Source: Sycon ciliatum (Eukaryota > Porifera > Calcarea > Leucosolenida > Sycettidae). From it: a DNA stretch of 64,000 bases. The stretch is taken from positions 3,376,101 through 3,440,100 of the forward strand of contig NC_088651.1 in NCBI RefSeq assembly GCF_964019385.1, given 5' to 3'. A program made the translations under genes and the position numbers. Positions 9,106 to 63,079 of this stretch are shown in pieces; within the stretch, counting starts at the first letter, position 1; each line of letters begins with the position of its first letter. The notes under the pieces were generated by a model that saw nothing but the letters and a program-made list of their open reading frames with translations, made no database searches and was not told the DNA's origin.

Positions 9106-9106
9106 A

Positions 9107-9244: not shown

Positions 9245-9246
9245 AT

Positions 9247-11747: not shown

Positions 11748-12797
11748 TTTGTTTTTTTTTTGTTTTTTTTGTTTACAAAAAACCACACACCATTTGATGG
11801 CACAAAGCAGCAAGGCAGCGATGAGACATATGGAATGGCAGGAGTGGGGGAGAGGCAGGGGCAGCTTGACCGACCATAGGGTCTCGGCTTCATTGCAACC
11901 CAAGCGCTCCACAAAAACAAAATATTACAGAAAATACGCAGTGGGGGGGGGGGGGTAGATAACTGGGGATTACGGGGAAAAGTATGCACACTAAAAAGTT
12001 ATCAGAGAGTCAACGAAGTGAATGGAGGAGGGAACAGAGTTAGAGCTTTTTTCGTCTTTTTTCTTTGATTCATAGCCTGTCCGTTGCCCACTCCCAGCGG
12101 GTAAGGCGCAGGTGGGCGTAGACCTTTTCTTTGAACGTCTGCAGTCCTTTCCTTGTTGGCTGGTTCAGCAGAACGCACTGCGGGAGCTGGTTCCAGACCT
12201 CCACAACAGCGTCAGGGAAGGACCAAAGAACATCATTCCGTGCTCTGGGCGGAAGAGTGGAAGTGAGCTGAAACTGGTGTGAGGGATGCTTTTGTGTGCG
12301 TCGGCTATGGCGTGATGTGTTGTTCGCTCGGGGTGGAAGAAGGGTGAGAAGCATGTCTGGGCCAGTTGAAAAGTGGAGCTTGTACAGAAAGCAGAGTGCT
12401 CCGACCATTCTCCGGATGCCCAAGCTAGGGAGGTAGGCTCCGTCACCGATTAGGTGAAGGCCACAGCGTTGGATGGCAGTGAGGCGAGCCAGAGTGGTGG
12501 GTGCAGCGCTCATCCACACGAGCATGCCATACTCCAAAACAGGGCGGACAAAGCCCTTGTAGATCACTCCACGGCACCTGGAGTCCAGCACTCGCGAGGC
12601 TTTCCGGAGGAAGCCGAGACGCTGCGAGCCTCGAATAGCCAATTGCCTGATATGAGCTGTGAAGGACAGGTGTTGGTCAAACAGCACACCCAGCAGCTTC
12701 AGCTGGTCGACTTCCGGAACAACTGTGCCCTGGAATACAATCGGTGGGACGACGACTGTGTTGCGATGGTGAGAAATCAGGAGAGACTGAGACATGT
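11748..12797 (-). mobile_element. 5'-truncated LINE insertion with 6-bp target duplication
   Basis: The flanks ACATGT (11742-11747 and 12792-12797) duplicate a site that is uninterrupted at about 17978-17983 in the neighbouring unit. On the minus strand the insert ends in an A-rich tail (T-rich at 11748-11772 as printed), includes a G/C homopolymer at about 11944, and carries the 3' end of a reverse-transcriptase ORF. Insertion post-dates the unit duplication. Confidence 0.85.
12070..12790 (-). pseudogene. LINE reverse transcriptase, C-terminal part
   Basis: About 240 codons open to a stop at 12070. The motif order LLGVLFDQHLSF, then YKGFVRPVLEYGMLVW, then VWNQLP is the standard region after the RT palm in Jockey/CR1-type LINEs. 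The catalytic RT motifs are missing because of 5' truncation. The nearest relatives in the window are 59340-60170 and 63393-63926. Confidence 0.8.
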
Positions 12798-13312
12798 ACC
12801 ATATTCTGCTGATTTGCTGAAATATACATTCTCCGAGTGATTTCAAGCTTACTTAATGTGAGAACATGTATCCGTTAGTGCTCCCCAACCGCCGAAAAAA
12901 GACGCATTGACGAAGAAACCACAGAGCAAACTCAAAATTCTGGGTGAGGGAAATGTTGCCTCATTCCTCCCCATTACCTATCTGCGAGGCTGAATTTTAC
13001 TTTTCTGCAGCGACCTATTCCTGCATGAATTCTGAGCAGTAACATTGCTCGGTTTACAAAATTCTGGATGTTATGCTATTGTCATGATTACTAACTAATT
13101 TTCTATCAATGTTACACGAGGTTTGGGATAATGATCGACAGCAAGCTAACACAATAGGCGTGATTCAACTTCTTCTTTGCATTTATTTGAATTCGCACCT
13201 TCAAACGGGCAAGAACCCAATAACATGAAAGCGAATGTGATAATGGCTATCGCCAAGTCAAGTCATATCATGTGGAGCGCATCAAACTATGTCCACTTCG
13301 AGCAAATACAAA

Positions 13313-14100
13313 TTACAATTTCCAATTTGGACTGAGCGGAGAATTTCAAAGAGCAGTAGATGGCATGTGGCCTCTAATTTCCTAAAATAATTATAATCGT
13401 TGAAGAATTTGACCCGCGTCTTCGTTATCAGTTGCTTTTGGTTACTTCGGCACAGAGGACGTCGTCCAACACTGGGAAATATTCCTCTCCCCAACCCATT
13501 TGGTTTCCATAGTCATTTGTGTGAATCCCAGCACTGGCAATAGTATCGTCAAAATTGGCCTGACCCGTTGTGGACAGTACCAACAGGAGGAGGGTCGGGC
13601 AGTATCATGGGTCTGTGAGTGAAGCGGATCTGGAGGAACAAATCTGGTCCGGGAACGAGGAGCTAGCAGATGGGAGACAAGTGGTCTGTACAGAAACGGA
13701 GGATGAGACGGATGATCAGAGGATGGAAGAGTAATTGGATGACGAAACGGCTGGTGAAGAGACAGAGGACGAGGCAGATGATGGTAGTGATAAGGGTCGT
13801 GAGGATGACGAGCGGAACGAGGAAGAGGACGATGAGATGGACGAGGAGGAGTAGGGCCGAAAGGAGCGAGATGAGACAGATGAATGTGTTGATCTTAAGA
13901 TGTCGGCTGTGTATCTACACTTGTTATCTCGTCCTGACTGTCTTGGTGTGTATGATGACTCTCATTTTTCTGTACTGTGTCGTTCGCGTTATGTCCAACA
14001 GTTGGACAAAGCACATGAGGCAGTTTGTATACGTATTCATAAGACTGTTTGGTGTAAGCAGAAAGAGCACGTTGTTTCACCGAAGTTGTATTCGTAGGTT
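13313..14100 (+). pseudogene. Decayed ORF block, array unit 3
   Basis: Third copy of the 84-780 block. A one-base insertion near 13563 breaks the acidic frame. The shared TAG after the acidic run is present. The Arg-rich frame is open from 13670 to 14179 (169 codons) and contains the hydrophobic helix. The frame ending in PKLYS is open from an ATG at 13900. Confidence 0.3.
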
Positions 14101-14472
14101 GACACTTGGTTCAGTGCCTTCTCACCTTTGGTTACGTAATCTTGTTACCTTTTTGCGTTTTACTGCAGTTTTATCCTGATGGTATTTCTAACACCTTTCC
14201 ATTTACAGTACTTAACTTCAGTTTCTTTGGTTGTATCCTTTAGTTCCGTATTTTTTTCCACTGATGATAGGAACGAGAAAATCGATTCTGGTTTTCAATA
14301 ATATTTTTGTTATAAAATACACAGTAATACATGTCGAACAAGTAACGTAGTTGTGTGATGTCTTCGGGCTTCATCCTATTCTTTAGCTATATTTAAATTG
14401 TTACCTCCACGTGGATTATTTGAATAATAATACTGTCTCGCAGTTTGGTAATATGTAGAACGATGCTACCTG

Positions 14473-14775
14473 ATGAGCGTTGTGCGAAAGCCAGTTCGAT
14501 GCATTTCCATATTTTCATCGTTCCTATTAGTGTTCTTCAAAATACATTTTCATCATAGTTATTTCTTTGTCCATCACCACCTTCTGGACCTTCTGCTGAT
14601 TCTGCATACGTGTATTGCAATGTTCTGTCACCTCGCAGCCTGTTCATGTAATGCAAAAGACGTTGTAGCGTCATGGGGTAGACAGGGTCCACACACCTAC
14701 CCAGTACAATGTTTGGGTTTCAAACTCAAATATATTTTGATAAGCCAGCAAGTAGTTCTTGGTTATTCTGCGTGA
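14473..14775 (+). CDS. Unrecognised 100-residue hydrophobic ORF (array copy)
   Basis: Open counterpart of 3215-3517 in unit 3. It faces the 14899-15048 gene. Coding status is doubtful, as for the other copies. A shortened copy (75 codons) is at 16588-16815. Confidence 0.22.
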   Translation: MSVVRKPVRCISIFSSFLLVFFKIHFHHSYFFVHHHLLDLLLILHTCIAMFCHLAACSCNAKDVVASWGRQGPHTYPVQCLGFKLKYILISQQVVLGYSA

Positions 14776-14898
14776 GTGCATCAGCAGCGCATCTACGATT
14801 GGGTTGCCAGCGGTGCATGCATGCGTGAGTTCAGCAGTGCATGCATGAGTTCAGCAGCGTATGTCGCAGCATAGCAGCCTACATATTCAAAGCTCTTA

Positions 14899-15048
14899 CT
14901 AGTCAAGACAGTAAACCAACACGAAGAGAAATATGAAAAACAAAATTATAACGCAGAAAACAATCCACAACCATAGCTCTTCCTCGTCGTCCTCTAGTAG
15001 TGCGAATGGCTTCCTTCCGCTAGCAGTGGGCAGCTTCCGTGGTCCCAT
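14899..15048 (-). CDS. Tiny single-pass membrane protein, array copy 5
   Basis: 49 residues, the same predicted protein as copy 4. TATAAATA is at 15114-15121. The polyadenylation hexamer is changed to AATATA at the homologous position. The flanks differ from copy 4 at many positions while the protein is unchanged, which fits constraint on the product. Confidence 0.7.
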   Translation of the reverse strand: MGPRKLPTASGRKPFALLEDDEEELWLWIVFCVIILFFIFLFVLVYCLD

Positions 15049-15113
15049 TGTTGCTTCTGTTTCCTTCTACGTGGTCAAAGAGTCTCGGGCAAAGATTGAC
15101 AAATCCCCTTCGT

Positions 15114-15121
15114 TATTTATA
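15114..15121 (-). promoter_or_regulatory. TATA box of array copy 5
   Basis: TATAAATA on the minus strand, same spacing to the ATG as in copies 1-3. Confidence 0.55.
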
Positions 15122-17017
15122 GCACTAAAGAGGTTTGTACCGCGTCACTAAATTCCAATCGTATCAAGTACAAACCAGCAGTTCTAGATTCGGTTGCTTA
15201 TTGTATCATCGTACCTACTTTTTTTATAGTAACTACTCATCACTTTGATGTAGACCAAACTCGTTAGGAAGTGCCAAACTGTAATCAGGTAATGCGAATA
15301 TTGAAGCAAACAGCGAGGAGACAATATGATAATCCCAATCAATACCACAGACTGAATCGACATTTGTGTACACTTTAATCATGCCATGTAAAACGGTGGA
15401 GACAATGTGCGTGGTAGCAAGTCTTCAGTGTACAATCATCTTCTAGCTAGTCCTGATTGTTTCAATTCGCATTCCGACTTTTCTTTCACTGTATTGTGCC
15501 GTGGTCGTCATTGTTATATTTAAACCCCAATATTTCTTTTCAATTGGTAGTATCAAGAGGCTCGGTGGTATTTATCTTCCTTGTAACTACAATTGTGCGC
15601 AAAGAGGATTTTCTCTCCAACCCTGTAATACCATAATAATTCTGCTGTTTTGCTGACATATACATTCTCCGAGTCTTTTCGACGACGCAAGCGCTTCGAG
15701 CCTTTTGGAAAGGTTTCCCTCGTGCACTTGGCCGGGCTTTACACTACAAGGTCGGTGCCCAGCACGTGCTCTCACACTGCTCTGCGGCAAAGTCCGCGTT
15801 TCTCTGAAAAAAGGTGACGTCAACAAAATTCCGCCGTGGGCGGGGTATCTGCAGATTGTGCAGGAGAGATCCGGAGTTGCACACTCTTGTTTATGTACTC
15901 TTGCCATTAGCTATCTGCGAGGCTGAATTTTACTTTTCTGCAGCGACCTTTTCCTGCATGAATTCTGAGCAGTAACATTGCTCGGTTTACAAAATGCAGG
16001 ATGAATGTGTTGATCGCAAGATTTCGGCTGTGTATCTACAATTGTTATCTCGTCCTGACTGTCTTGGTGTGTATGATGACTCATTTTTCTGTACTGTGTC
16101 GTTCACGTTATGTCCAACAGCTTAAAGTACATGAGGCAGTTTGTATACGTATTCATAAGACTGTTTTGTGTAAGCAGAAAGAGCGCGTTGTTTCACCGAA
16201 GTTGTATTCGTAGGTTGACACTTGGTTCAGTGCCTTCTCACCTTTGGTTACGTAATCCTGTTACCTTTTTGCGTTTTACTGCAGTTTTATCCTGATGGTT
16301 TTTCTAACACCTTTCCATTTACAGTACTTAACTTCAGTTTCTTTGGTTGTATCCTTTAGTTCCGTATTTTTTCCCACTGATGATAGGAACGAGAAAATCG
16401 ATTCTGGTTTTCAATAATATTTTTGTTATAAAATACACAGTAATACATGTCGAACAAGTAACGTAGTTGTGTGATGTCTTCAGGCTTCATCCTATTCATA
16501 GCTATATCTAAATTGTTACCTCCACGTGGATTATTTGAATAATAATACTGTCTCGCAATTTGTTAATATGTAGAACGATGCTACCTGATGAGCGTTGTGC
16601 GAAAGCCAGTTCGATGCATTTCCATATTTTCATCGTTCCTATTGGTGTTCTTCACAATACATTTTCATCATATTTATTTCTTTGTCCATCACCACCTTCT
16701 GTACCTTCTGCTGATTCTGCATACGTGTATTGCAATGTTCTGTCACCCTGCAGCCTGTTCATGTAATGCAAAAGACGTTGTAGCGTCATGGGGTAGACAG
16801 GTTCCACACACCTAATCAGTACAATGTTTGGGTTTCAAACTCAAATTTATTTTGATAAGCCAGCAAGTAGTTCTTGGTAATTCTGCGTGAGTGCATCAGC
16901 AGCGAGCGCATCTAAGATTGGGTTGCCAGCGGTGCATGCATGCGTGAGTTCAGCAGTGCATGCATGAGTTCAGCAGCGTATGTCACAGCGTAGCAGCCTA
17001 CTTATTCAAAGTTCATA

Positions 17018-17164
17018 CTAGTCAAGACAGTACACCAACACGAAGAGAAATATGAAAAACAAAATTATAACGCAGAAAACAATCCACAACCATAGCTCTT
17101 CCTCGTCTCCTAGGGGTGCGAACGGCTTCCTTCCGCTAGCAGTGGGCAGCTTCCGTGGTCCCAT
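17018..17164 (-). CDS. Tiny single-pass membrane protein, array copy 6
   Basis: 48 residues. One codon is lost by a 3-base deletion in the acidic linker, which now reads PLGDEEE. Head and helix match copies 4 and 5. TATAAATA is at 17231-17238 and AATAAA at 16846-16851. It lies 2119 bp from copy 5, so an internal duplication like that in unit 1 also occurred in unit 3. That the sole indel among six copies is in frame supports translation. Confidence 0.7.
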   Translation of the reverse strand: MGPRKLPTASGRKPFAPLGDEEELWLWIVFCVIILFFIFLFVLVYCLD

Positions 17165-17230
17165 TGTTGCTTCTGTTTCCTTCTACGTGGTCAAAGAGTC
17201 TTCGGGCAAAGATTGACAAATCCCCATCGA

Positions 17231-17238
17231 TATTTATA
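17231..17238 (-). promoter_or_regulatory. TATA box of array copy 6
   Basis: TATAAATA on the minus strand, 67 bases 5' of the ATG. Confidence 0.55.
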
Positions 17239-18531
17239 GCACTAAAGAGGTTTGTACCGCGTCACTAAATTCCAATCGTATCAAGTACAAACCAGCAGTT
17301 CTAGATTCCGGTGCTTATTGTATCATCGTGCCTACTTTTCTTATCGTAACTACTCATCACTTTGATGTCGACCAAACTCGTTAGAAAGTGCCAAACTGTA
17401 ATGCGAATACTGAAGCAAACAGCGAGGAGACAATAATTAGGATAATCCCAATCAATACCACAAACTGAATCAACATTTGTGTACACTTTATTCATGCCAT
17501 GTAAAACGGTGGAGACAATGTGTGTGGTAGCAAGTCTTTAGTGTACAATCATCTTCTAGCTAGTCCTGATTGTTTCAATTCGTATTCCGACTCTTCGTTC
17601 ACTGTATTGTGACGTGGTCGTCATTGTTATGGACAACAGTTAAACTTCTTGGAAGCCGTTTTATCATCGTTTGTGCAAGTATATTTTGTGTGTACAGAAA
17701 GATAGTATAATTGGGTTGAAATTGTTCAAGTAACGTGTCGTGTTTGATGCGGCCAAGCTTGGCCGTTAATGTCTAGGTGAAATGTACTGCTGTTATGTGT
17801 TATCACTTTGTCCTTCTTTCTTTCTTTCCCTTATTTGTATTTTTTCATTTGCAAGTCTAATATTTCAAAATTTCCTTTCAAATGGTGGTATCAAGAGTCA
17901 TGGTGGTACTTAACTTCCTTTGGTAAGTAATAACATTTGTGCGAGAGGAGGATTTTCTCTCCAATCCTGTAATGCCGTACATGTACCATATTCTGCTGAT
18001 TTGCTGAAATATACATTCTCCGAGTGATTTCAAGCTTACTGAATGTCAGAACATGTTTCCGTTAGTGCTCCCCAACTGCCGAAAAAAGACGCATTGACGA
18101 AGAACCCACAGATCAAATTCAAAATTCTGGGTTAGGGAAATGTTGCCTCATTCCTCCCCATTACCTATCTGCGAGGCTGAATTTTACTTTTCTGCAGCGA
18201 CCTATTCCTGCATTAATTCTGAGCAGTAACATTGCTCGGTTTACAAAATTCCGGTTGTTATGCTATTGTCATGATTACTAACTAATTTTCTACCAATGTT
18301 ACACCACGTTTGGGATAATGATCGACAGCGAGCTAACACAATAGGCGTGATTCTTCTTCTTCTTCGTATTTATTTCAATTCGCAGCTTCAAACGGGCAAG
18401 AACACAATAACATGAAAGCGAATGTGATAATGGCTACGGCCATACGGAGAATGCTGCTACAAATCTAATATTAGTGTTTAATGAGGAGGAGAATGAGAAA
18501 GAGAGTGTGAATTGTTTCAGTGTAGAGAGAT

Positions 18532-21750: not shown

Positions 21751-21959
21751 TAGGATCTCATTGCTAGATTCTTGTATATCCTTCTTTCTTCTCTTTTTCT
21801 ATATTCCTTTTTTTCTTTTCTTGAAGTTGGTTGCTCCAACGAGGAGCACACGCTTCTTGCCGAACTTGACACTTGACTGACTCACGACTGCCATCCGGAG
21901 CACACCAGGAGCACGTCGCACCTTCCGCTCGGCAAACCTGAAAGAAAGCACCACTCCAT

Positions 21960-22005
21960 GCTCAATACACAGTGTTTCGGGGAATTCACCCCTCATCAGT
22001 TGAGC
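21960..22005 (-). ncRNA. Minimal type I hammerhead ribozyme
   Basis: Minus-strand order: stem I strand GCTCAA, core CTGATGA, stem II GGGG-loop-CCCC, core GAAA, a 2-bp stem III (CA/TG) with a 3-nt loop CTG, cleavage dinucleotide TA, then stem I partner TTGAGC. All invariant core bases are present. The very short stem III is typical of hammerheads in Penelope-like elements. Confidence 0.8.
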
Positions 22006-22280
22006 TTGAGTAGGCTGAGGAAGATTGTGCCTGAAAAGCTCCACTTATATACTGCTCTCCAGGCCAAACCATCACCAGGGATACAAACTTACAGAGACGC
22101 TTTGTTTCCAGCGCGACAAACACCTCGTGAAGCCCCAGGTAGCAGCGTGAGTCAGAGTCGCTCATGGAGTTGTGCTAAACAGACGTTGAGAGCCAGTATA
22201 GCTATTCACAACGCTGTCACCTCCAACAACTAGTCGCACGTTCGCGTGAGGGACAACAATACGAACTTAGAAGTTCTCAA

Positions 22281-22326
22281 GCTCAAATGATGAGGGGTGA
22301 ATTCCCCGAAACACTGTGTATTGAGC
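22281..22326 (+). ncRNA. Hammerhead ribozyme with mutated core
   Basis: Inverted partner of 21960-22005. Stems I, II and III are intact but the core reads ATGATGA in place of CTGATGA. C3 is essential for cleavage, so this copy is probably inactive. Confidence 0.7.
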
Positions 22327-22646
22327 AGGGAGTGGTGCTTTTTTTCAGGTTTGCCGAGCGGAAGGTGCGACGTGCTCCTGGTGTGCTCCGGATGGCAGTC
22401 GTGAGTCAGTCAAGTGTCAAGTTCGGCAAGAAGCGTGTGCTCCTCGTTGGAGCAACCAACTTCATGACATTACCGCCGAAGTCGCAACTTCTAAGTTCGT
22501 TTTCTTTTCTTGCCGTGGTTGGCTATCACCCCTCTCTCGCACTTTGCGTGCCAATTGGTCATGAATCACGAGTTGAGTGAAATAAATAAAATAAAATAAA
22601 TGTCCAGTATTTGTAATAAAAATAATCTGCTGCAATTTATAGATTC

Positions 22647-33475: not shown

Positions 33476-33943
33476 ATCAAAATGGTCGCACATTATGACA
33501 TATCCCTGCACACTAGGGTGTGAAAGACGCGTTGCAATGGCAGACAAAGATGCAGCATTGGCAAACAAGGAGGGCACGAGTAACAGGACTGACATAGATA
33601 CATAAAATAATGAATAAAGAATAGGAATGGGTTTATTCCCATACTGGAGCTCCCGCAATTCCGCCGACTTGACACTTGACTGACTCACCACTGCACACCG
33701 CGCGCCTATCGAACCTTCGACTCGGCAAACCTGAAAGAAAGCACCACTCTCTTCAGGCACAAATGTGGTGCAGATCGCTGGAATTCGTCCCTGCTTCTGT
33801 TCATATTTGCTCCACGCTATCAGACTTCCGCTCATCTATACAAAAACATATAGGGTACCTCGTAAGAAGGCCTTAGGCCTGTGGGAGGTCCCTATTCAAA
33901 ATTTAAATAATCAATAATAATAAAACTTCCTCAGCCTACTCAA

Positions 33944-33989
33944 GCTCAACGGATGAGGGGTGAATTCCCAAAACACTGTGTATTGCGCA
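33944..33989 (+). ncRNA. Degenerate hammerhead ribozyme
   Basis: Same layout as 56387-56432, but the core reads CGGATGA instead of CTGATGA, the CCGAAA junction is CAAAA, and stem I has a mismatch. Predicted to be inactive. Confidence 0.65.
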
Positions 33990-34079
33990 GGGAGTGGTGC
34001 TTTCTTCCAGGTTTGCCGAGTCGAAGGTTCGATGGACTTCTCGTGTGCTCTGGATGGCAGTCGTGAGTCATACAAGTGT

Positions 34080-34324
34080 CAGCGACCCTAGAGGTTGCGG
34101 GTTCGAGCCCCGCAGTCGCACATCTGACTGCAAAATCCCCGCGACGCAGCTCACCAGATCAAGGTGTGGGTCCTCTGCACTCAGTAGAGTCAAGTCAAGC
34201 GAGCAGCAACTCCCAGTGCCAAAAGGCGGGCTTACGCCCCGACATGGCTACTTCCCCTTGTCTAACCCCCAAGACGAACATTTAATCATAGTAGCCGACT
34301 GGCCGAAATAAAAATTAAAAAAAT
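34080..34324 (+). mobile_element. tRNA-derived SINE of a second family
   Basis: B box GGTTCGAGCCC at 34100-34110, a CTGGCCGAAATAAAA end and an A-rich tail. TACAAGT flanks both sides (34073 and 34325). The A-box region is reduced. It lies inside the older hammerhead element. Confidence 0.65.
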
Positions 34325-42650: not shown

Positions 42651-42903
42651 GAGAAAAGCCTCTTTTACGGGCAAAGCAAATGTATATCATTACAATATGT
42701 AAAGTGAACAGGGGAAATCAACACAAAACCAACCGGAAAATGATGAAACACAAAAGCAGTCAAGGAAGTAAATCAATACAAAAACAAGCAATGAACACAG
42801 AGTAATAAAAGGGGAAAAACCAAATAGCATTATATTAAGTTGAGGCCAAAGGCAGCACCCTACTCCGCCTGGCGGCACTGGGCCAGAAATGAGTTCGGCT
42901 GTC
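42651..42903 (-). mobile_element. RLE LINE type C, 3' fragment
   Basis: Matches 50047-50300 almost exactly. Its 3' end abuts the TCA tract on the left and it is cut at a TCA tract on the right. Confidence 0.75.
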
Positions 42904-42904
42904 G

Positions 42905-42943
<39 letters not shown>

Positions 42944-43011
42944 GTGTAGGGTTCCACTCCTTCATCTTGGGAAATTGTGTTTTGTTTGCCCAAAGAAGTG
43001 GCTTCATCATC
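42944..43011 (+). mobile_element. RLE LINE type A, 3'-terminal fragment
   Basis: The last 68 bp of the type A element (GGGTTCCACTCCTTCATC to GTGGCTTCATCATC), followed by a run of about 28 A and then TCA repeats. Confidence 0.75.
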
Positions 43012-43014
43012 ATC

Positions 43015-43045
<31 letters not shown>

Positions 43046-43067
43046 CATCATCATCATCATCATCATC

Positions 43068-44031
43068 GCCCCTGGCGGAGCATGGCTTTCGTCTCACCAA
43101 GCGTGACTTCCGGGATGCTCTGGCATTGAGATATGCATGGCCGCTAGCCAATGCACCAGCAACCTGTGTGTGTGGTGAGCTGTTCTCAGTTGAGCATCAG
43201 CTATGTTGCGCCAGGGGCGGCTTCCCGACACTTCGTCATAACGAGATACGTGACCTGCTGGCGAGGGAATTGACTGAAGTCTGCACTGCCGTTTCGACAG
43301 AACCAGCGCTGCAACCTCTTTCTGGTGAGAGGTTTCCTCTTCGGTCAACGAACCGCCGAGAGGATGCGCGCCTGGACATAGCCGCTCGAGGGTTTTGGAC
43401 CCGTGGGGAGGAAGCTTTTTTTGATGTAAGGGTATTTTGCCCAGATGCTCCTTCCTACGGGTCCAGAACCCTCCCTGCATTGTACCAGCAGCACGAGCGG
43501 CGTAAGTGGAACGAATATGGGCCAAGAGTCACAAATGTAGAAAGAGCCGCTTTCACACCTCTCGTGTTCTCTGTGCATGGTGGTTGTGGGAGGCTGTGCA
43601 ATGTGTTCCTCAAGAGACTGTGCCAGATGCAGGCCGAGTCATCGGGATCTCACTATTCCCAGGTCATTGGTTTACTCCGCTGTCGGCTGTCTTTTGCTTT
43701 GCTGCGTGCTGCTGTGTTGTGCATACGTGGGGCTCGGTCACGGTACCACCATCCGGCGAGATGTTTTCATGATGTCTCGATTGCCGTGGCCGAGTCAGGT
43801 CTAGTTTGTTAAGTATCGTGCTGTGTCCTGACTGTGCATGCGGGATTGGTATGGCGCTTACCCTTTTGTTGCTGTTTTGTTGCTTTCATGCCTTTAAGCA
43901 TGTAATTGTGTTCAATTGTTATATTTCATGGAAAAACGATCTTTGCGTTGGATTCATTTAAACTATTATTTGTGTAGGGTTCCACTCCTTCATCTTGGGA
44001 AATTGTGTTTTGTTTGCCCAAAGAAGTGGCT
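43068..44031 (+). mobile_element. RLE LINE type A, 5'-truncated copy
   Basis: Joined to a TCA tract at its 5' end at CTGGCGGAGCATGG. It contains the whole zinc-knuckle/endonuclease domain and the complete 3' untranslated region, then A-run and TCA tract. It differs from 47783-48640 at only a handful of bases. Confidence 0.85.
43072..43812 (+). pseudogene. Restriction-like endonuclease domain of a type A LINE
   Basis: 246 codons in frame: CVCGELFSVEHQLC zinc knuckle, ARLDIAARGFW, catalytic FFDVRV, then LRCRLSFALLRAAVLCIRGARS. The frame is also open through the upstream microsatellite, giving a spurious Ser/Lys extension to 42889. No RT, so it cannot act alone. Confidence 0.8.
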
Positions 44032-44282: not shown

Positions 44283-44637
44283 CCATCATCATCATCATCA
44301 TTCATCATCGCTCAGTGGAGAACGGTTGGCAATTCTGAGGCTCTTGGTTTGCTTGGTTGACTTGGTTGCTGGAGAGGAACTGAGAAGCTTGACTTGGCTG
44401 GCGCTGCTGTCTGTTGCTGTTCGGTGGAGTGGTCATCACATTTTATCCTTTGGAGGCACCCATTGGAGGCACCCAATGGCCACCCAATGGCCAGTGTTAG
44501 ACCAGTGAGGAGAGGAGTGTGACTGCCTTGCTGCTGGAGGCAGTTTCTGACACGATTGGTGACTCTGGTCATACAGTCCTGATGCAGTCGTCACCTCAGT
44601 CATCCTCACACCTCCTATCCCTGCCAGTTCTGTCGCG

Positions 44638-47298
44638 ATGCCGTGCTGCAACTGCCAGATTGGTCGCAAATGTGTTAGATGCAGATGTGTTCGTGCGAAG
44701 AAGCGCTGTGTGGACTGCTACCCTGGTAGAGCTACCCCTAGCCTTTGTCACAACCAAACTGAATCCATCGCCTCGCAGCCTGCTGGCGCTGTTGGCGCTG
44801 GTATTGTGGTCAGTGGTGGTGGAGGATGTTCATCCAGCCAGCCATCTCAGCGAAACATATCACCGGAGGATAGCTCTGATGAATCCACTGCATCTGCAGA
44901 TGAGGGTTGTGGCAGTGGCAGGCGCGATGTCGACTCCTGGCTGCGTGTAGATCACCCACTTGGGATTCATCCCAGCTCTGATTCCTCGCCATTCTCCCCA
45001 AGTGACATAGTCGAGTGCGGTCTAGCCAGCGCGGTGCCATGTTGTCGCTGCCAAGCAGGGGGTACGTGCATACGATGCGCTTGTGTCAGGGCTGGCAGAG
45101 TTTGTAGTAACTGCTATCCTGGGAGGGGTCGACTTGGCACCTGTCGTAATGTTGCTTCGGTGCCTGGGGTCCCGAGCTCTCGGCCCCAGATTATTCAGAG
45201 TGGCACCTCTGCTGCAACTGCATTGATTCCGACAGCATCTCAGGTTGACTTGCTTACCAGTTTGGAGGAATCTGACTCTGGTGCGCCACTGATGAGTGTG
45301 GATTCGGGCGCTGGGGGTACTGTACAACAGGCAGTGCATGGGGAGGATGACTCACGGTCCACTCTTATCTCATCCCAACCCCAGCTATGCCCATCTACGG
45401 GGAATATCGATTTGCAGGCTACGGGTTCTGGTCATGCGGATGTGGATCCATTTTCGCAGGTGCTTGGCTCGAGCCAGCCGGACGCTGCCTCTCCAGTTCC
45501 CACCACCCCTCGGGTCTCCATGCCTTTTGACATGGCTGACATCTATCAGGAGGTGGCGAGTTGGGAAAAGAACCTCTTCCGGGCTCCGACCGGCAGTGTT
45601 GGCAAAGAGTTTGTTCGGACACTCACGTCAGAACTTCAAAAGTTCAATTCGTCCCGAGGAGCGGAAGCCACTGCTCTATATCGTTTCTTCCTGCTTCCAG
45701 CGTTGGTGCTCCAGCGAGTAGGTCGGAATTGCCCTGCCGCAGAGTGCTCTGACCACACTCGTCGCAGACTAAATTTATGGATCCAGGGTTCCTATATGGA
45801 GCTAGTGCAGGAGGGTCGAACTATTCAGCATATGCTCAAGACATCGCAGAATCGGAGATCCAGGCGTGGCGAAGACCCTGCTCATGAGTTTGGCCACTTG
45901 ATGGAACAGGGCCGAGTTCACTGCGCACTGAGAATGCTGGATAATGCAACCAAGCCCAAGTGTGATAAACCGGTCTTGGGCATGGACGACATCATTTCTG
46001 ATTCTCATCAATCCCAGTCAGTCCGTGAAATTCTCGTCGGGAAGCATCCGGGGTCGGCACCGGCAGCACCGGACATCCTGCTTCAGGAGGAGGCGGGCAA
46101 TGTCAGCAGTATCTACTTCGCCAGCGTCAATGGTGAGTTGATCAAACGCACTGCCCTTTCTCTGCATGGTTCTGCGGGTCCTTCCGGCCTGGACGCGGAT
46201 GCTTGGCGGCGGCTATGCACATGTTACAAAGGTGCATCTACTGATCTGCGTGAGGCAGTGGCGTGCTTCACACGCTTGATCTGTACCGACTCAGTCCCCT
46301 CCGGCTCACTCACACCGTACACAGCTTGCAGACTCATTGCCCTCAACAAGAACCCTGGCGTTCGGCCAATAGGGGTATGTGAAGTGTTTCGTAGACTGTG
46401 CTCCAAGGCGGCATTGTTTCTGATGAAACCCGACATTATGCAAGCCTGCGGACCAGTTCAGGCCTGCACGGGCATCCCGGCTGGGGTGGAGGCTATGGTG
46501 CACTCAATGACGGCTGCCTTTGCTTCGGAAAAGGCTGAGGCAGTGTTGCTAGTCGATGCTCGCAATGCCTTCAATAGCTTGAATCGCCGCGCTGCATTGC
46601 ACAATATTGCTCGAGTATGCCCCCCGCTAGCACAAATAACATTGAATACTTACCAAGACCCTGCATCCCTCTTTGTGCGTGGTGGCCAGTCTTTATTGTC
46701 ACAGGAGGGCACAACCCAGGGTGACCCTCTTGCGATGGCCATTTATGCCACGGCTCTCACCCCTCTCGTCAAGTCAGTCGGAACCAATGTTGCAGATGTG
46801 TGCCAGGGATGGTTTGCAGATGACTCGGCAGCTGCCGGAGGGCTCTCCCCATTGCGAAAGTGGTACAACCTCCTTAAGGAAGAGGGCCAAAAATACGGCT
46901 ACAACATCAACGAAACAAAAACGCAACTACTCGTCAAGCCTGGCTTTGAGTCCTTGGCTGCCGAGACTTTTGGTGACACAACTATCCACGTCAAGTCTCG
47001 TGGCGTACAGTATCTGGGCGCTGCTATCGGGACTGAGGCATTCCTCGGAGAATTCAAAGAGACAAAAGTAGAAGAGTGGGTGAAACATACAGAGATTTTA
47101 GCAAATTATGCCGCAACAGAGCCGCATGCAGCATACTCTGCGTTGACCCATGGCTTAGTCAACAGATGGAACTATGTGTTTCGAACTATGGCTGTTTCTG
47201 CGGAGGACTTGGCGCCGTTGGAGCGGGAGCTTCACTCCTCACTTCTACCGGAGCACTTCTACCGTGGGACAACCGAGCGTGCCTCTGAAAGACATTGA
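44638..47298 (+). CDS. LINE ORF: Cys-rich DNA-binding region and reverse transcriptase
   Basis: 886 codons from ATG 44638. Residues 3-38 and about 132-168 are two copies of a Cys-rich module (CCNCQIGRKCVRC.., CCRCQAGGTCIRC..), probably nucleic-acid-binding. The RT palm follows: LLVDARNAFNSLNR (about 637-650, first catalytic Asp), QEGTTQGDPLAMAIY (about 690-705) and WFADDSAAAGG (725-735, catalytic Asp pair). The thumb leads to LHSSLLPEHF. The frame ends at 47298 where one shift moves it into 47282-48523. All RT catalytic residues are present, so the element was active recently. The encoded protein would make cDNA on nicked target DNA. Confidence 0.85.
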   Translation: MPCCNCQIGRKCVRCRCVRAKKRCVDCYPGRATPSLCHNQTESIASQPAGAVGAGIVVSGGGGCSSSQPSQRNISPEDSSDESTASADEGCGSGRRDVDSWLRVDHPLGIHPSSDSSPFSPSDIVECGLASAVPCCRCQAGGTCIRCACVRAGRVCSNCYPGRGRLGTCRNVASVPGVPSSRPQIIQSGTSAATALIPTASQVDLLTSLEESDSGAPLMSVDSGAGGTVQQAVHGEDDSRSTLISSQPQLCPSTGNIDLQATGSGHADVDPFSQVLGSSQPDAASPVPTTPRVSMPFDMADIYQEVASWEKNLFRAPTGSVGKEFVRTLTSELQKFNSSRGAEATALYRFFLLPALVLQRVGRNCPAAECSDHTRRRLNLWIQGSYMELVQEGRTIQHMLKTSQNRRSRRGEDPAHEFGHLMEQGRVHCALRMLDNATKPKCDKPVLGMDDIISDSHQSQSVREILVGKHPGSAPAAPDILLQEEAGNVSSIYFASVNGELIKRTALSLHGSAGPSGLDADAWRRLCTCYKGASTDLREAVACFTRLICTDSVPSGSLTPYTACRLIALNKNPGVRPIGVCEVFRRLCSKAALFLMKPDIMQACGPVQACTGIPAGVEAMVHSMTAAFASEKAEAVLLVDARNAFNSLNRRAALHNIARVCPPLAQITLNTYQDPASLFVRGGQSLLSQEGTTQGDPLAMAIYATALTPLVKSVGTNVADVCQGWFADDSAAAGGLSPLRKWYNLLKEEGQKYGYNINETKTQLLVKPGFESLAAETFGDTTIHVKSRGVQYLGAAIGTEAFLGEFKETKVEEWVKHTEILANYAATEPHAAYSALTHGLVNRWNYVFRTMAVSAEDLAPLERELHSSLLPEHFYRGTTERASERH

Positions 47299-48523
47299 TA
47301 TTCTAAAGCTCCCGACACGGGATGGTGGGATGGCCCTTCCGGACCTCACGACTCGACCACGGTTTGAGCACCAGGGCTCCAAGCAAGTGTCCGGACCTAT
47401 GGTGAAGGAGGTTCTGGGCGATTTCGCTAAGGATAGCGATCCAATTTCTCTCGCTGGAGATGTGCCGGCTTCTGCAGATATTGCTGACCGTGGTGGAGCG
47501 TCTCCCACTCCCACGATGACGGCAACGGAGGTGCAGCCGCGGGAGGTCGCTGGCAACTCAAACCCTGGACCGGATGTGGCTGCTGATGTTGCTGGTGCTG
47601 GTACCCCCTTTCAGAGGATGATCGATGAAATGCGTCACAAAAAGCGTGTCGTCCACACCGAAAACCGGGAGCGCGCAAAGGCAGCCAGGAACAAAATAGT
47701 GGACACGAGCGATGAGATGACGAAGCGACGAATAGAAGAACACACGGAGAAAGGATCATCCTCATGGCTGAGCGTGCTGCCGCTGGCGGAGCATGGCTTT
47801 CGTCTCACCAAGCGTGACTTCCGGGATGCTCTGGCATTGAGATATGCATGGCCGCTAGCCAATACACCAGCAACCTGTGTGTGTGGTGAGCTGTTCTCAG
47901 TTGAGCATCAGCTATGTTGCGCCAGGGGCGGCTTCCCGACACTTCGTCATAACGAGATACGTGACCTGCTGGCGAGGGAATTGACTGAAGTCTGCACTGT
48001 CGTTTCGACAGAACCAGCGCTGCAACCTCTTTCTGGTGAGAGGTTTCCTCTTCGGTCAACGAACCGCCGAGAGGATGCGCGCCTGGACATAGCCGCTCGA
48101 GGGTTTTGGACCCGTGGGGAGGAAGCTTTTTTTGATGTAAGGGTATTTTGCCCAGATGCTCCTTCCTACGGGTCCAGAACCCTTCCTGCATTGTACCAGC
48201 AGCACGAGCGGCGTAAGTGGAACGAATATGGGCCAAGAGTCACAAATGTAGAAAGAGCCGCTTTCACACCTCTCGTGTTCTCTGTGCATGGTGGTTGTGG
48301 GAGGCTGTGCAATGTGTTCCTCAAGAGACTGTGCCAGATGCAGGCCGAGTCATCGGGATCTCACTATTCCCAGGTCATTGGTTTACTCCGCTGTCGGCTG
48401 TCTTTTGCTTTGCTGCGTGCTGCTGTGTTGTGCATACGTGGGGCTCGGTCACGGTACCACCATCCGGCGAGATGTTTTCATGATGTCTCGATTGCCGTGG
48501 CCGAGTCAGGTCTAGTTTGTTAA
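47282..48523 (+). CDS. LINE ORF continuation: zinc knuckle and restriction-like endonuclease
   Basis: 413 codons in the +1 frame relative to 44638-47298; the shift falls within TCTGAAAGAC. It contains LPTRDGGMALPDL, then the knuckle CVCGELFSVEHQLC (C-x-C-x7-H-x3-C) and the endonuclease core EDARLDIAARGFW..EEAFFDVRV with acidic residues intact. It ends with the conserved LRCRLSFALLRAAVLCIRGARS. It has no start of its own, so either the element is inactivated by a single indel or the frames are joined by a +1 shift. Confidence 0.8.
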   Translation, partial: PLKDIDILKLPTRDGGMALPDLTTRPRFEHQGSKQVSGPMVKEVLGDFAKDSDPISLAGDVPASADIADRGGASPTPTMTATEVQPREVAGNSNPGPDVAADVAGAGTPFQRMIDEMRHKKRVVHTENRERAKAARNKIVDTSDEMTKRRIEEHTEKGSSSWLSVLPLAEHGFRLTKRDFRDALALRYAWPLANTPATCVCGELFSVEHQLCCARGGFPTLRHNEIRDLLARELTEVCTVVSTEPALQPLSGERFPLRSTNRREDARLDIAARGFWTRGEEAFFDVRVFCPDAPSYGSRTLPALYQQHERRKWNEYGPRVTNVERAAFTPLVFSVHGGCGRLCNVFLKRLCQMQAESSGSHYSQVIGLLRCRLSFALLRAAVLCIRGARSRYHHPARCFHDVSIAVAESGLVC

Positions 48524-53055: not shown

Positions 53056-53067
53056 TTCTATGAATAA

Positions 53068-53347
53068 TCATGAAGTTGGTTGCTCCAACGAGAAGCACAC
53101 GCTTCTTGCCGAACTTGACAATTGACTGACTCACGACTGCCATCCTGAGCACACGAGGAGCACACCTGTGTATTGGGCAGGGAGTGGTGCTTTCTTACAG
53201 GTTTGCTGAGCGGAAGGTGCGACGTGCTCCTCGTGTGCTCCGGATGGCAGTCGTGAGTCAGTCAAGTGTTAAGTTCGGCAAGACGCGTGTGCTCCTCGTT
53301 GGAGCAACCAACTTCATGACTATTACCGCGAAGTCGCAACTTCTAAG
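53068..53347. mobile_element. Short hammerhead-family element with 12-bp target duplication
   Basis: Flanked by TTCTATGAATAA at 53056-53067 and 53348-53359. Two inverted copies of the terminal 100-170 bp of the 21824-22499 family, with the hammerhead core deleted (only the 3' arm TGTATTGGGCAG remains near 53168). Confidence 0.75.
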
Positions 53348-53447
53348 TTCTATGAATAAACTGTAACTGGGCAAAGTTTAGAATCACATAGTTCTGCCCT
53401 ATTTTGTTGTTGTAGAAGTTTATTTGTGGTCACGTGAAACCACTCTA

Positions 53448-55016: not shown

Positions 55017-55380
55017 GATTGGGAATTTGCATATAATATAATCTTTATTAAAGGATCTCCCAGAGGCGATGGCCTGTCGAGGGGATCTCCTGATGCAAAT
55101 CATGCAATAGAAATAAACAGTGAGGAAAACTACACGTGTTACAATATATGCTACATAAATTACCAATAAACATAGGGCTGGGTTGTTAAAAATAAAACAA
55201 TTAATTTAAATTTAGAAGTTGCGACTTCGGCGGTAATAGTCATGAAGTTGATTGTTCCAACTAGGAACACACGCTTCTTGCCGAACTTGACACTTGACTG
55301 ACTCACGACTGCCATCCGGAGCACACGAGGAGCACGTCGCACCTTCCACTCGGCAAACCTGCAAGAAAGCACCACTCCCT

Positions 55381-55426
55381 GCTCAATACACGGTGTTTCG
55401 GGGAATTCACCCCTCATCAGTTGAGC
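55381..55426 (-). ncRNA. Hammerhead ribozyme, intact core (copy 1)
   Basis: Minus strand: GCTCAA, CTGATGA, GGGG/CCCC stem II with a six-base loop, GAAA, CA-CCG-TG stem III, TA cleavage site, TTGAGC. Identical in layout to 55912-55957. Confidence 0.8.
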
Positions 55427-55911
55427 TTGAGTAGGCTGAGGAAGATTGTGCCTGAAAAGCACCACTTATATACTGCTCTCCAGGCCAAACCATCACCAGG
55501 GATACAAACTTACAGAGACGCTTTGTTTCCAGCGCGACAAACACCTCGTGAAGCTCCAGGAAGCAGCGTGAGTCAGAATCGCTCATGGAGTTGTGATAAG
55601 CAGACGTTGAGAGCCAGATAGCTATTCGCAACGCTGTCACCTCCAACAACTAGTCGCACGTCCGCGTGAGGGACAACAATACGAACTTAGAAGTTGCGAC
55701 TTCGGCGGTAATAGTCATGAAGTTGATTGTTGATTGTTTGTTGTTGGAGGTGACAGCGTTGCGAATAGCTCTGCTTATCACAACTCCATGAGCGATTCTG
55801 ACTCACGTCTCTGTAAGCGTCTCTGTAAGTTTGTATCCCTGGTGATGGTTTGGCCTGGAGAGCAGTATATAAGTGGTGCTTTTCAGGCACAATCTTCCTC
55901 AGCCTACTCAA

Positions 55912-55957
55912 GCTCAACTGATGAGGGGTGAATTCCCCGAAACACCGTGTATTGAGC
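55912..55957 (+). ncRNA. Hammerhead ribozyme, intact core (copy 2)
   Basis: Stem I 55912-55917 with 55952-55957, core CTGATGA 55918-55924, stem II GGGG 55925-55928 with CCCC, core GAAA, two-base-pair stem III, cleavage after A at 55951. The TATATAA box at 55866-55872 would start transcripts about 20 bases before the ribozyme. Confidence 0.8.
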
Positions 55958-56340
55958 AGGGAGTGGTGCTTTCTTGCAGGTTTGCCGAGTGGAAGGTGCG
56001 ACGTGCTCCTCGTGTGCTCCGGATGGCAGTCGTGAGTCAGTCAAGTGTCAAGTTCGGCAAGAAGCGTGTGTTCCTAGTTGGAACAATCAACTTCATGACT
56101 ATTACCGCCGAAGTCGCAACTTCTAAGTTCGTATTGTTGTCCCTCACGCGGACGTGCGACTAGTTGTTGGAGGTGACAGCGTTGCGAATAGCTATCTGGC
56201 TCTCAACGTCTGCTTATCACAACTCCTTGAGCGATTCTGACTCACGCTGCTACCTGGAGCTTCACGAGGTGTTTGTCGCGCTGGAAACAAAGCGTCTCTG
56301 TAAGTTTGTATCCCTGGTGATGGTTTGGCCTGGAGAGCAG

Positions 56341-56347
56341 TATATAA
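56341..56347 (+). promoter_or_regulatory. TATA box of hammerhead repeat
   Basis: TATATAAG, about 46 bases before the ribozyme. Equivalents at 55866-55872 (plus), 55467-55473 (minus) and 22045-22051 (minus). Confidence 0.5.
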
Positions 56348-56386
56348 GTGGTGCTTTTCAGGCACAATCTTCCTCAGCCTACTCAA

Positions 56387-56432
56387 GCTCAACTGATGAG
56401 GGGTGAATTCCCCGAAACACCGTGTATTGAGC
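56387..56432 (+). ncRNA. Hammerhead ribozyme, intact core (copy 3)
   Basis: Stem I 56387-56392 with 56427-56432, core CTGATGA 56393-56399, stem II GGGG 56400-56403 with CCCC 56410-56413, GAAA 56414-56417, stem III CA/TG with loop CCG, cleavage after 56426. It lies 475 bp from copy 2 in the same orientation, so an RNA spanning both could release a unit-length fragment. Confidence 0.8.
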
Positions 56433-56575
56433 AGGAAGTGGTGCTTTCTTGCAGGTTTGCCGAGTGGAAGGTGCGACGTGCTCCTCGTGTGCTCCGGATG
56501 GCAGTCGTGAGTCAGTCAAGTGTCAAGTTCGGCAAGAAGCGTGTGTTCCTAGTTGGAACAATCAACTTAATTAAT

Positions 56576-56887
56576 TTAAATGTCCAGGGATATACCACTA
56601 CAGTCAAATTTAAAACTTTTCACGTGCAAGCGACATTGCTGCTGAAATTTAGAAAGTGAATCTTGGGATGTCAGCCTTGGTGGAAGGCAGTTCCACAGCT
56701 TTCCGATTTTATGCAGAAAGAGAGAGGAAGAGATGCGGCCATGAGAATTGAAAATCAGTTTGTTTGGTCGGCGTGCGCTAGAAGAGATATTGATGTCAAA
56801 GCGGGATAGATAATCTGGGTGCCAATGGATATACTTGAACAAAATGGTGATGGAAATGTAAGTGCGTCGGAAGTGAAGGGATTCCAA
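56576..56887 (-). pseudogene. LINE RT C-terminal fragment inside Gypsy
   Basis: Contains HPDYLSRFDINISSSARRPN and LWNCLPPRLTSQDSLSKF. Its 3' untranslated part is at 55017-55211, on the other side of the hammerhead element. Related to 37961-38313. Confidence 0.75.
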
Positions 56888-61422: not shown

Positions 61423-62466
61423 CTACCGGAGAGGGTTCCCATTGCCTATCAGTTTGTAGTATAGAGCGTTTCTTGACAGATTTTTCGCAAACGCCGCGCG
61501 ATTCAGAAGCAAGGCGATGACTTTGTGCGCGTAGAGATACTGGACGTCACCCTGTATCATAGAATTTCGCTGTGAGCGCATGTGGCGTATAATCCCATAC
61601 AGATCAATACTGGTGGTCTGTGAGCTTAGGAGTTCCCTCACAACCGTATCGACTGCAATGAAAGTTCCCGTGCGGCCCACTCCGGCACTGCAGTGCACAA
61701 CAACAGGTCTTGAACTGGTTGTGTCGAAACTGCCCTCCTGACTATGGTACCGAACGGCGAGTACAAATCGGAGCAGGAGGTAAGGATCGCTGGGAGCACC
61801 ATAGTCGGCCCACTCAGTTAGTTGGTAGTGGTTTATGTCGCGGTATTTCGTCCCGGCCGACACGCGAATGCTGCGATACATGCCCCATGGGGTTTTCCTT
61901 TCAATAAGCATCCGCACTCGCAGTGGTCCCAGCTTGAGAGTATACTTCTCTTCAGGGAACAGTGGCCAGTAGCGGAACACTTTCGGAATGCCGTGCTCTA
62001 TGTTCTCTCCCAGCATTACCACAACCGTCGTACCTTGTTCATACACCATCTGCCAGAAGTCCCGCACAGTGTTGCACAGCGGTCCCTGCGTGGCTATATA
62101 AGCGTTGTGCTGCTGCGGATGATGGATGTAGTTGGCGTTGATGTAATCACCTCCAGATCCAGCGCCGAGCCTCACGCGGGAATGGTCAAAAGCTAAGACG
62201 TTCTTGTAGCGATTTTTTTCCAGATTTTCAGCGCGAACGGACACCATCGCGGCGGGTGCGGGTGACGTCCTATTCACTTCTGCATGTTCTCTCTTTATCT
62301 TCGCTTCGTTTTGGGAAACAAATTTGGGAAAGTTGCTGATGGGAATACATCTGGGAGAAGGTCCGTATACGGGACCACCTAAATTTTGAATATATCTAAT
62401 AGGCATGATCACAAAGTAGGAAAAGTTCGCAATGATAAAATCAATGATCTCCTTCAGAGATACCAT
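61423..62466 (-). CDS. Protein tyrosine phosphatase domain protein, single exon
   Basis: 347 residues from ATG 62464-62466. Residues 1-30 are hydrophobic with Lys/Arg ends (possible membrane association). The PTP domain follows in order: KNRY (84-87), DYINANYI (107-114), YIATQGPL (123-130), WAD loop (219-221), signature HCSAGVGRTG with Cys259 and Arg265 (258-267), Q-loop Gln305 and Gln309. It should hydrolyse phosphotyrosine: the nucleophile, P-loop Arg and general acid Asp221 are all present. The usual Pro of the WPD loop is Ala, which occurs in some PTPs with altered turnover. AATAAA is at 61269-61274. The lack of introns is unusual for animal PTPs and suggests a retrocopy or an intron-poor lineage. 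Confidence 0.88.
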   Translation of the reverse strand: MVSLKEIIDFIIANFSYFVIMPIRYIQNLGGPVYGPSPRCIPISNFPKFVSQNEAKIKREHAEVNRTSPAPAAMVSVRAENLEKNRYKNVLAFDHSRVRLGAGSGGDYINANYIHHPQQHNAYIATQGPLCNTVRDFWQMVYEQGTTVVVMLGENIEHGIPKVFRYWPLFPEEKYTLKLGPLRVRMLIERKTPWGMYRSIRVSAGTKYRDINHYQLTEWADYGAPSDPYLLLRFVLAVRYHSQEGSFDTTSSRPVVVHCSAGVGRTGTFIAVDTVVRELLSSQTTSIDLYGIIRHMRSQRNSMIQGDVQYLYAHKVIALLLNRAAFAKNLSRNALYYKLIGNGNPLR

Positions 62467-63079
62467 TGTGCGAGTTACGTTACCGAACCTTCTTCTGTTA
62501 TAGGTAGTCCATGCGGTGAAGGGCCTTTGGACATTTTTCTACACACAATAGATTTTATTACATACTGATATACGACAGGATGCATACGCTCAGAACCGCT
62601 TGTCATGTATTTATAATAATCTGTATTTCAGGATTACCAAAAGGCTGACGCCTACCGGGGGGGGGGGAATCTCCTGTTTGTGATGTGATTCAGGATAAAC
62701 TCCTTTTCTGTTGTTTATTGGTTTCTACACGTGTTTGATCGTACAGTGGTCTTTTTCCCACTCTATTGATATAAGTTTGCAAGACGTGTAATCCTCCAAA
62801 GCTCATGGCGGCTCTTGTCCAACGTCTGCGTTAAGCTGCGCTGAATCACACGGACACGGGAGATGTTTTAGAAAGCTGCTTTGGCCCTGTGCAGGCTACC
62901 ACGGTATGACATGTAAGGTGCCTTCTCAGGCATGATGGCAAGCCAGAAGATCCAGTCTACCCAGCAGCGTTTGCATGAGAGAACAGCTATCGCCTAGACA
63001 CAGGTACTATTGCATTGTGACCGTCGCCAAAGGCAGGCTATCCGTTTTCTTGATACGCTCAACTGTCTGGCCATATACT
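62467..63079. other. Upstream flank of the phosphatase gene; no gene recognised
   Basis: Contains a poly-G run at 62659-62667. No convincing TATA box within 100 bases of the phosphatase ATG and no supported frame. Confidence 0.4.

Follow-up and report, generated by a model that had tools for sequence, protein, structure and literature searches.

A stretch of 64,000 bp from the genome of the calcareous sponge Sycon ciliatum (contig NC_088651.1, positions 3,376,101 to 3,440,100 of the forward strand), called the window below, contains an insertion of short repeated units that carry hammerhead ribozyme motifs. Judged from its sequence, this element at 55212-56568 is very probably a non-autonomous retrozyme of the Penelope type, mobilised in trans by the enzymes of Penelope-like elements (PLEs). 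The structural support for the Penelope link comes from its head-to-head arms, a tail at one end only, target-site duplications of 11-16 bp and the occurrence of a PLE with the same layout in this genome. We read the element as an animal-type retrozyme bearing the integration signature of PLEs, for which a circular template made by the ribozyme is possible.

Both strands of the whole window were searched with a descriptor of the minimal type I hammerhead (CUGANGA, GAAA and UH at the core, with minimum lengths of 5 bp for stem I, 3 bp for stem II and, beyond A15.1-U16.1, 1 bp for stem III). The descriptor matched at exactly four places (Table 1), the same four at which the initial annotation, a reading of the bare sequence by a model, had put complete hammerheads, and it gave no match in any of 300 sequences simulated from the window with a first-order Markov model. 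By eye, the four motifs have a stem I of 6 bp, a stem II of 4 bp with the loop UGAAUU and a stem III of 2 bp plus A15.1-U16.1 with a 3-nucleotide (nt) loop, in agreement with the stem lengths of 6, 4 and 2 bp claimed before. The core of CUGANGA, GAAA and UH, the three helices and the open stem I are those of the minimal type I, and we regard the four as confirmed hammerhead motifs of this type, predicted to be self-cleaving. In a fifth motif, at 22281, the core reads AUGAUGA, its C being lost. The suggested search with hammerhead models did not recover any of them; Rfam gave no match at the gathering cut-offs over the window and no hammerhead up to E = 10 over 55100-56700 (1.6 kb), presumably because stem III is so short. 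The sole Rfam match, MIR394 (E = 0.1), spans the inverted arms and was taken as a palindrome artefact. The energy folds of the ribozyme had unremarkable z-scores against shuffled sequences, and the ribozyme claim is therefore built on the core and the stems and not on energy; in these folds, stem I was able to extend beyond an internal loop. The exact ribozyme pattern was also searched in viral contigs and had no match there.

The region 55212-56568 is a single insertion within a 13-bp target-site duplication, whose exact inner borders are the two bounds that had been given for the element. It contains one minus-strand unit, scrambled short pieces and then about 1.6 plus-strand units, so that the arms stand head-to-head. 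The two plus-strand hammerheads, at 55912 and 56387, are 475 bp apart as had been noted; with a TATA box upstream, such copies could release a unit-length RNA. The frames that open at the AUGs of these two ribozymes have 80 and 87 amino acids, and the first of them has no Pfam match. As there is no reverse transcriptase or GIY-YIG open reading frame beside them, the element is non-autonomous, as the initial annotation had held. The 80-amino acid frame (55921-56163, plus strand) is opened by an AUG within the ribozyme core, and in the Anolis PLE the open reading frame likewise begins at the ribozyme. Two further insertions in the window have the same two-armed build. One (21811-22512) has a minus arm with an intact ribozyme at 21960-22005 and a plus arm in which the ribozyme from 22281 is core-mutated. 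The other (53056-53359) has no ribozyme, which indicates that arms can end before the ribozyme is reached.

The relatives of the unit were searched in the genome (538 Mb, 313 contigs). The search gave 2,239 first-look candidates, of which 40 were scored and yielded 156 matches; many of the relatives are about 99% identical. The matches listed outside the window fall into 39 array clusters. Two arms were found in 33 of these, and all 33 run minus-then-plus, that is, head-to-head; a plus-then-minus adjacency was seen once, between an old and a young copy lying ~105 bp apart. In one array tabulated as one-armed (L063), the sequence revealed a second arm of 37 nt that consists of the tail only. 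When the unit is numbered from the base after 56093, the outer ends of the arms recur at two sites. Site A is unit position 475 (RNA ..CAAUCAACUU), in some copies with a few extra bases, and site B lies 33-47 nt beyond site A in most insertions, with a sequence that is mostly ..UUCUAAGUUCGU(A). Among the 33 two-armed arrays, 27 had one A-type and one B end, 34-47 nt apart along the unit, and none had two B ends in the end table, where "A" denotes a match reaching the query end, which lies 8 bases before site A; the 14 of these 27 that were read at the sequence level do reach it. The hairpin before site A varies with compensation among subfamilies in the few sequences compared (GUUCC/GGAAC, GCUCC/GGAGC and GCUCCC/GGGAGC). 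These ends place the start of reverse transcription at least 142 nt downstream of the cleavage site, and not at the cleavage site. The initial annotation had read the element as a Penelope-like or retrozyme repeat with a short stem III. That reading holds for a non-autonomous element with arms, tail and duplications of the PLE type; it was incomplete, because it had missed the inverted two-arm build, the duplication, the A and B ends and the ribozyme-less insertion at 53056-53359.

Three older copies with 89-95% identity across the probe (L055, L066 and the minus arm of 21811-22512) have kept the ribozyme except for one shared loop change; in others it is altered or broken (extra bases in stem II of L046; window 33.9 kb; 22281). 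The retention in three older copies agrees with selection on active source copies, in a sample too small to test. In the minus arm of L067, a few bases around the cleavage site are gone near 2640, and at the junction of L062 near 2190 both arms stop at the cleavage site with a short repeated filler. Both oddities are possibly scars of imprecise circularisation or of skipping by the reverse transcriptase.

For the border analysis, 24 insertions were prepared and L005 was left out as it had no recognisable A motif. A duplication of at least 10 bp (11-16 bp) was found in 21 of the remaining 23 insertions, compared with 1 of 506 mismatched flank pairs, and the A+T content of these duplications was 77%. 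Six further insertions with an outer A end were added, and four of them had duplications of 12-14 bp, which makes 25 of 29 tested insertions with a duplication of at least 10 bp (L003, L004 and L006 were left out of these tests because no outer A motif was found). Such individual duplications speak against an ordinary satellite or tandem array that spread by DNA recombination with the hammerhead as a passenger. The tandem units and their local homogeneity would fit a satellite, but the arrays are short (seven copies in the largest noted) and scattered over many contigs, and we consider this explanation highly improbable.

Twin priming of LINE-1 (long interspersed nuclear element 1), where the second priming site is internal and variable, likewise yields insertions that combine inverted arms and duplications. 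In favour of a twin priming of this kind, in which a LINE would insert an RNA resembling a short interspersed nuclear element with a 5' inversion, three open reading frames of the window match the general reverse transcriptase family (the LINE type is our reading of them). The second site in the present insertions is recurrent, and no A-tail was seen at the ends inspected by eye; we consider LINE-mediated twin priming very unlikely.

The PLEs of this genome were compared with the unit. The PLE locus L069 has an open frame of 807 amino acids with a GIY-YIG domain match, an inverted arm, a tail at one end only and a hammerhead-like core of its own. At this locus the duplication measures 9-12 bp and has a single mismatch (GTTGTCTTCC[T/C]A); its initial three bases recur at the element end, and the locus also holds an uninterrupted relative of the target. 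The layout of L069, parallel to that of the retrozyme, consists of a TATA box at -42, the hammerhead-like core, a hairpin, site A directly before (C)ATG and a tail ending in TTCGT. The tails of L069 and of the retrozyme both start with (C)ATG and end with TTCGT, whereas the TATA box lies at -42 relative to the core in L069 (as also in L017 and L018) and at -52 in the retrozyme. A hairpin precedes site A in L016, L013 and L010 too, where A was placed by eye. The distance from the ribozyme to A is 176 nt in the retrozyme and 91-112 nt in the PLEs examined here, with A placed by eye in all of them except L069. The PLE protein gave no match to the window. The GIY-YIG loci L009-L018 were considered as direct partners and rejected, as their likeness to the unit is limited to chance matches of 11-17 nt. 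As a separate observation, the PLE loci L010, L011, L013, L014, L016, L017, L018 and L069 contain at least three distinct hammerhead-like cores (CTGATGAAGGC.., CTGATGATGGC.. and CTGATGATGGTTATT..), and several of these cores adjoin hairpins that have GUGUG-like loops and immediately precede the presumed site A.

The characterised PLEs offer a close parallel. The Anolis PLE enzyme cuts and extends both DNA strands at AT-rich targets, its reverse transcription starts at two adjacent internal sites, the interval between which corresponds to the 30-40 bp "tail" in genomes, and its hammerhead lies just upstream of these start sites (PMC11167929). The Adineta elements have head-to-head inverted pseudo-long terminal repeats (pLTRs), a 31-bp tail at one end and duplications of 8-10 bp (PMC3846280). 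The retrozyme has in common with canonical PLEs a minimal hammerhead located before the start region of reverse transcription, a pLTR-like unit with a TATA box, a hairpin near the start, the one-sided tail, the head-to-head inverted arm, short AT-rich duplications and partial tandems (PMC11167929; PMC3846280). It differs from them in having no reverse transcriptase or endonuclease open reading frame, the whole element being the repeated pLTR-like unit. The three parts of the PLE integration signature, namely the head-to-head arm, the one-sided tail of 33-47 nt and the short AT-rich duplication, were all found in it.

The nature of the template was evaluated from the arrays. Within an array, the copies resemble one another more closely than expected (mean divergence 0.0050 against 0.0095 when permuted; 0 of 3,000 permutations as low; 60 copies in 22 arrays), and so do the opposite arms of one array (P = 0.01). 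The array periods are mostly array-specific and near-constant at 475, 476 or 482 bp, and the seven-copy array at C1:97424057-97427162 has a spacing of 482 bp in both arms. Several arms, for example in C235 and L055, continue through the cleavage site and reach lengths of up to some four units. Since reverse transcription starts at least 142 nt downstream of the cleavage site and many arms cross that site, a cut linear monomer alone is excluded as the template, which by this reading of the arrays can be either an uncut multimer or a circle. A possible though rather doubtful template is RNA transcribed as a linear multimer from genomic arrays, with the ribozyme as a relic or a 5' trimmer. A ribozyme-dead Anolis PLE RNA was also inserted in vitro (PMC11167929). 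The inner ends of the arms that are enriched at the hammerhead and its cleavage site could reflect either stalling at the fold or run-off on RNA that had been cut. Against linear templates, multi-unit arms that pass through the cleavage site with a near-constant period are simply explained by a monomer circle, for which a uniform linear multimer would do equally well.

In all, 79 inner (5') ends were placed, a part of them from BLAST coordinates only and leaving out the main element of the window, C9:11226377 and C2:12059524, whose junctions are complex or masked. Eighteen of the 79 fell within the 46-nt hammerhead, where 7.7 were expected (P = 0.0005; best 49-nt scan window, P = 0.0006), and 13 lay within 10 nt of the cleavage site against 3.3 expected, a cluster noticed before testing. 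The enrichment suggests stalling of the reverse transcriptase at the ribozyme or run-off near it. Run-off exactly at the cleavage site was rejected as the explanation, as several breakpoints lie 4-9 nt past it and stalling at the fold is equally likely.

The pairing of the ends bears on a snap-back or self-priming origin, as put forward for the Adineta Penelope palindromes (PMC3846280), in which one priming event is followed by fold-back of the cDNA or antisense RNA that copies itself into the inverted arm. Near-equal inner breakpoints would be predicted from this. Only 2 of 37 pairs with exact junctions lay within 10 nt of each other, where 2.3 were expected (3 against 2.4 in the first values), and the mean circular distance was 95 nt against 113 nt when shuffled (P = 0.045), so that the paired ends are slightly closer than chance, which is to the credit of snap-back. 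The same outer end would also be predicted on both sides, whereas in 27 of the 33 arrays one side ends at A and the opposite side at B. The near independence of the inner ends of the two arms disfavours fold-back copying, and we regard it as unlikely. At 11 of the 23 junctions the joined sequences overlap by 2 nt or more (16% in random joins; P = 2e-5 among the 18 joins that lack filler), and five of the 23 hold filler bases. Such microhomology and filler are as expected from end joining.

For the Penelope-type retrozyme, the following cycle may be proposed. The TATA box seen just upstream of the hammerhead would promote a multimeric RNA of the array, which the ribozyme motifs would cut into 475-nt units, and a host ligase would probably circularise them. 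A PLE enzyme (reverse transcriptase and GIY-YIG nuclease), whichever family acts, would then make a staggered cut in AT-rich DNA in trans. Reverse transcription would be primed by the two 3' ends that the cut exposes, starting on one side at site A beside the conserved hairpin and on the other at site B, some 33-47 nt downstream of site A, both of which are visible as the recurrent outer ends. Copying would cover the template in part, once or in several rounds, and the two cDNAs would be joined by the short microhomology observed, giving the head-to-head arms inside a duplication of 11-16 bp that are found in the genome, in the layout also present in the resident PLE. The extension of both strands by the Anolis enzyme is published (PMC11167929), and we infer that both strands are used within one insertion event. 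More specifically, each insertion may represent two simultaneous reverse transcriptions of one ribozyme-made circle, with a PLE dimer assigning A to one side and B to the other and a join by microhomology, a model that we offer tentatively as quite possible but short of probable.

Several observations weigh against this retrozyme reading or parts of it. The PLEs examined differ from the unit in ribozyme sequence while their layout is similar; three of the six PLE loci examined (L016, L013 and L010) have no TATA box near the core; and no autonomous PLE with the hammerhead, hairpin and tail of the unit was found among the loci examined, no genome-wide census of PLEs having been made. Clean A and B ends were absent from the table in 6 of the 33 two-armed arrays. 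The sequence accounts for two of them (L057, with a 12-nt tail, and L067, with a tail deletion); of the others, one runs into masked sequence (N), C1:936897 looks A-like on both sides (from the table only), C1:22785516 stops 29 nt before A, and C10:5201716 (L060) ends internally and lacks a duplication. L060 and L065 (9 bp, imperfect) are the misses among the 23 borders, and no duplication was found at two further copies, both seen as single arms, L053 and the second element of L007. Some duplications sit in simple repeats (L051, L059 and L064) and some have one to four bases in common with the element end. The array period is not wholly constant, as single outer copies of 480 bp (C4) and 477 bp (C235) occur. 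Among rare variants at sites covered in both arms, 21 of 29 are confined to one arm, and six of the eight common to both arms stem from one old insertion; one-arm variants would also arise from mistakes of the reverse transcriptase and from later mutation. The sample consists of top-scoring copies and is hence young. Moreover, the GC content of the unit (51%; 0.509) is marginally out of line with the general trait of under 50% in animal retrozymes (PMC7229834).

Compared with the metazoan non-LTR (long terminal repeat) retrozymes (Cervera & de la Pena, 2020; PMC7229834), the element has in common non-coding tandem units with a type I hammerhead, duplications of more than 4 bp, a high copy number and coexisting PLEs. 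The traits by which a retrozyme is recognised, namely tandem repeats that are non-coding, carry a type I hammerhead each and are dispersed with target-site duplications, are present here. The unit of 475-482 bp is longer than the ~170-400 nt circular RNAs and the 150-450 bp genomic repeats of animal retrozymes, and the minimal hammerhead with a short stem III is of the PLE kind, unlike that of the metazoan retrozymes described there. Head-to-head arms and recurrent A/B ends mark the present element, whereas the word "inverted" is absent from the main text of that paper, in which PLEs are only "a strong candidate" for mobilising animal retrozymes (PMC7229834). The very short stem III is common to the minimal PLE hammerheads that are reported to cleave as dimers (Lunse, 2017; Cervera, 2014), from which the present one differs by a stem III of 2 bp plus A15.1-U16.1 and an extendable stem I; it may work as a monomer or as a dimer. 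The Schistosoma W-elements are satellite-like hammerhead repeats with some evidence of mobility, as here; no ends of the PLE type are described for them in the available text of PMC8490949, unlike here. A retrozyme with PLE ends was not found by title or by the start of the abstract in the open-licence literature, outside which most subscription papers lie.

Table 1. Hammerheads, arms, duplications and other parts of the retrozyme insertions in the window.
Feature	Position	Strand	Basis or remark
Second insertion, older subfamily; 13-bp duplication TTTTCTTTTCTTG at 21811-21823 and 22500-22512	21811..22512	.	
Intact minimal type I hammerhead	21960-22005	-	GCTCAACTGATGAGGGGTGAATTCCCCGAAACACCGTGTATTGAGC except for C to T in loop III
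Decayed old copies with a broken ribozyme core	33663..34081	.	
Third, very short insertion; arms of ~100 and ~190 bp, without ribozyme; 12-bp TTCTATGAATAA at borders	53056..53359	.	
Target-site duplication, left copy, 13 bp, AATTAATTTAAAT	55199..55211	.	exact repeat at 56569-56581
Minus-strand arm of about one unit, including the tail; ends outward at site B and inward at about unit position 469	55212..55726	-	blastn against unit
Minus-strand copy of hairpin GUUCC-UAGUU-GGAAC, immediately upstream of site A	55254..55268	-	sequence; compensatory forms in relatives
Intact minimal type I hammerhead, minus arm	55381-55426	-	exact GCTCAACTGATGAGGGGTGAATTCCCCGAAACACCGTGTATTGAGC
Scrambled unit pieces (positions 70-100 and 116-153) at arm junction	55740..55807	+	blastn against unit
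Plus-strand arm: unit positions 197-475, then whole 475-bp unit; outer end at site A	55815..56568	+	blastn against unit
TATA box, candidate promoter, TATATAAG, 52 bases upstream of ribozyme core	55866..55873	+	sequence
Intact minimal type I hammerhead	55912-55957	+	exact GCTCAACTGATGAGGGGTGAATTCCCCGAAACACCGTGTATTGAGC; predicted cleavage after 55951
Hairpin GUUCC-UAGUU-GGAAC upstream of internal site A	56070..56084	+	sequence, folds
"Tail", site A (after 56093) to site B; starts (C)ATG, B mostly near TTCGT(A)	56094..56140	+	end mapping over arrays
Second TATATAAG	56341..56348	+	sequence
Intact minimal type I hammerhead	56387-56432	+	exact GCTCAACTGATGAGGGGTGAATTCCCCGAAACACCGTGTATTGAGC; predicted cleavage after 56426
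Target-site duplication, right copy, AATTAATTTAAAT	56569..56581	.	exact repeat of left copy

Other features of the window were also noticed. A block of ~2.08 kb is present in about six copies over 700-17600, in tandem at a spacing of 2,084 bp near the left end and with further copies near 10, 14 and 16 kb; these blocks contain recurring CTGATGA...GAAA strings that fail the hammerhead descriptor. An open frame of 911 amino acids (44563-47298) has a reverse-transcriptase domain and a cysteine-rich N-terminal part, and the frame after it (47159-48523) resembles that at 42844-43812. The 371-amino acid frame on the minus strand at 61423-62538 has a protein-tyrosine phosphatase domain (E 1e-68) and is likely a host coding sequence.

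The many young, near-identical insertions with the end signature of PLEs provide genomic evidence linking PLEs and animal retrozymes. Because the repeated unit is short, both start sites of reverse transcription, the arms and the junctions can be read for dozens of events, and the models of Penelope integration (dual priming, snap-back and twin priming), as well as circular against linear templates, thus become testable by counting. If the proposed two-ended copying of one circle is true, the ribozyme-derived circle would be the actual intermediate of transposition, and the tail an inherent sign that priming took place from both ends.
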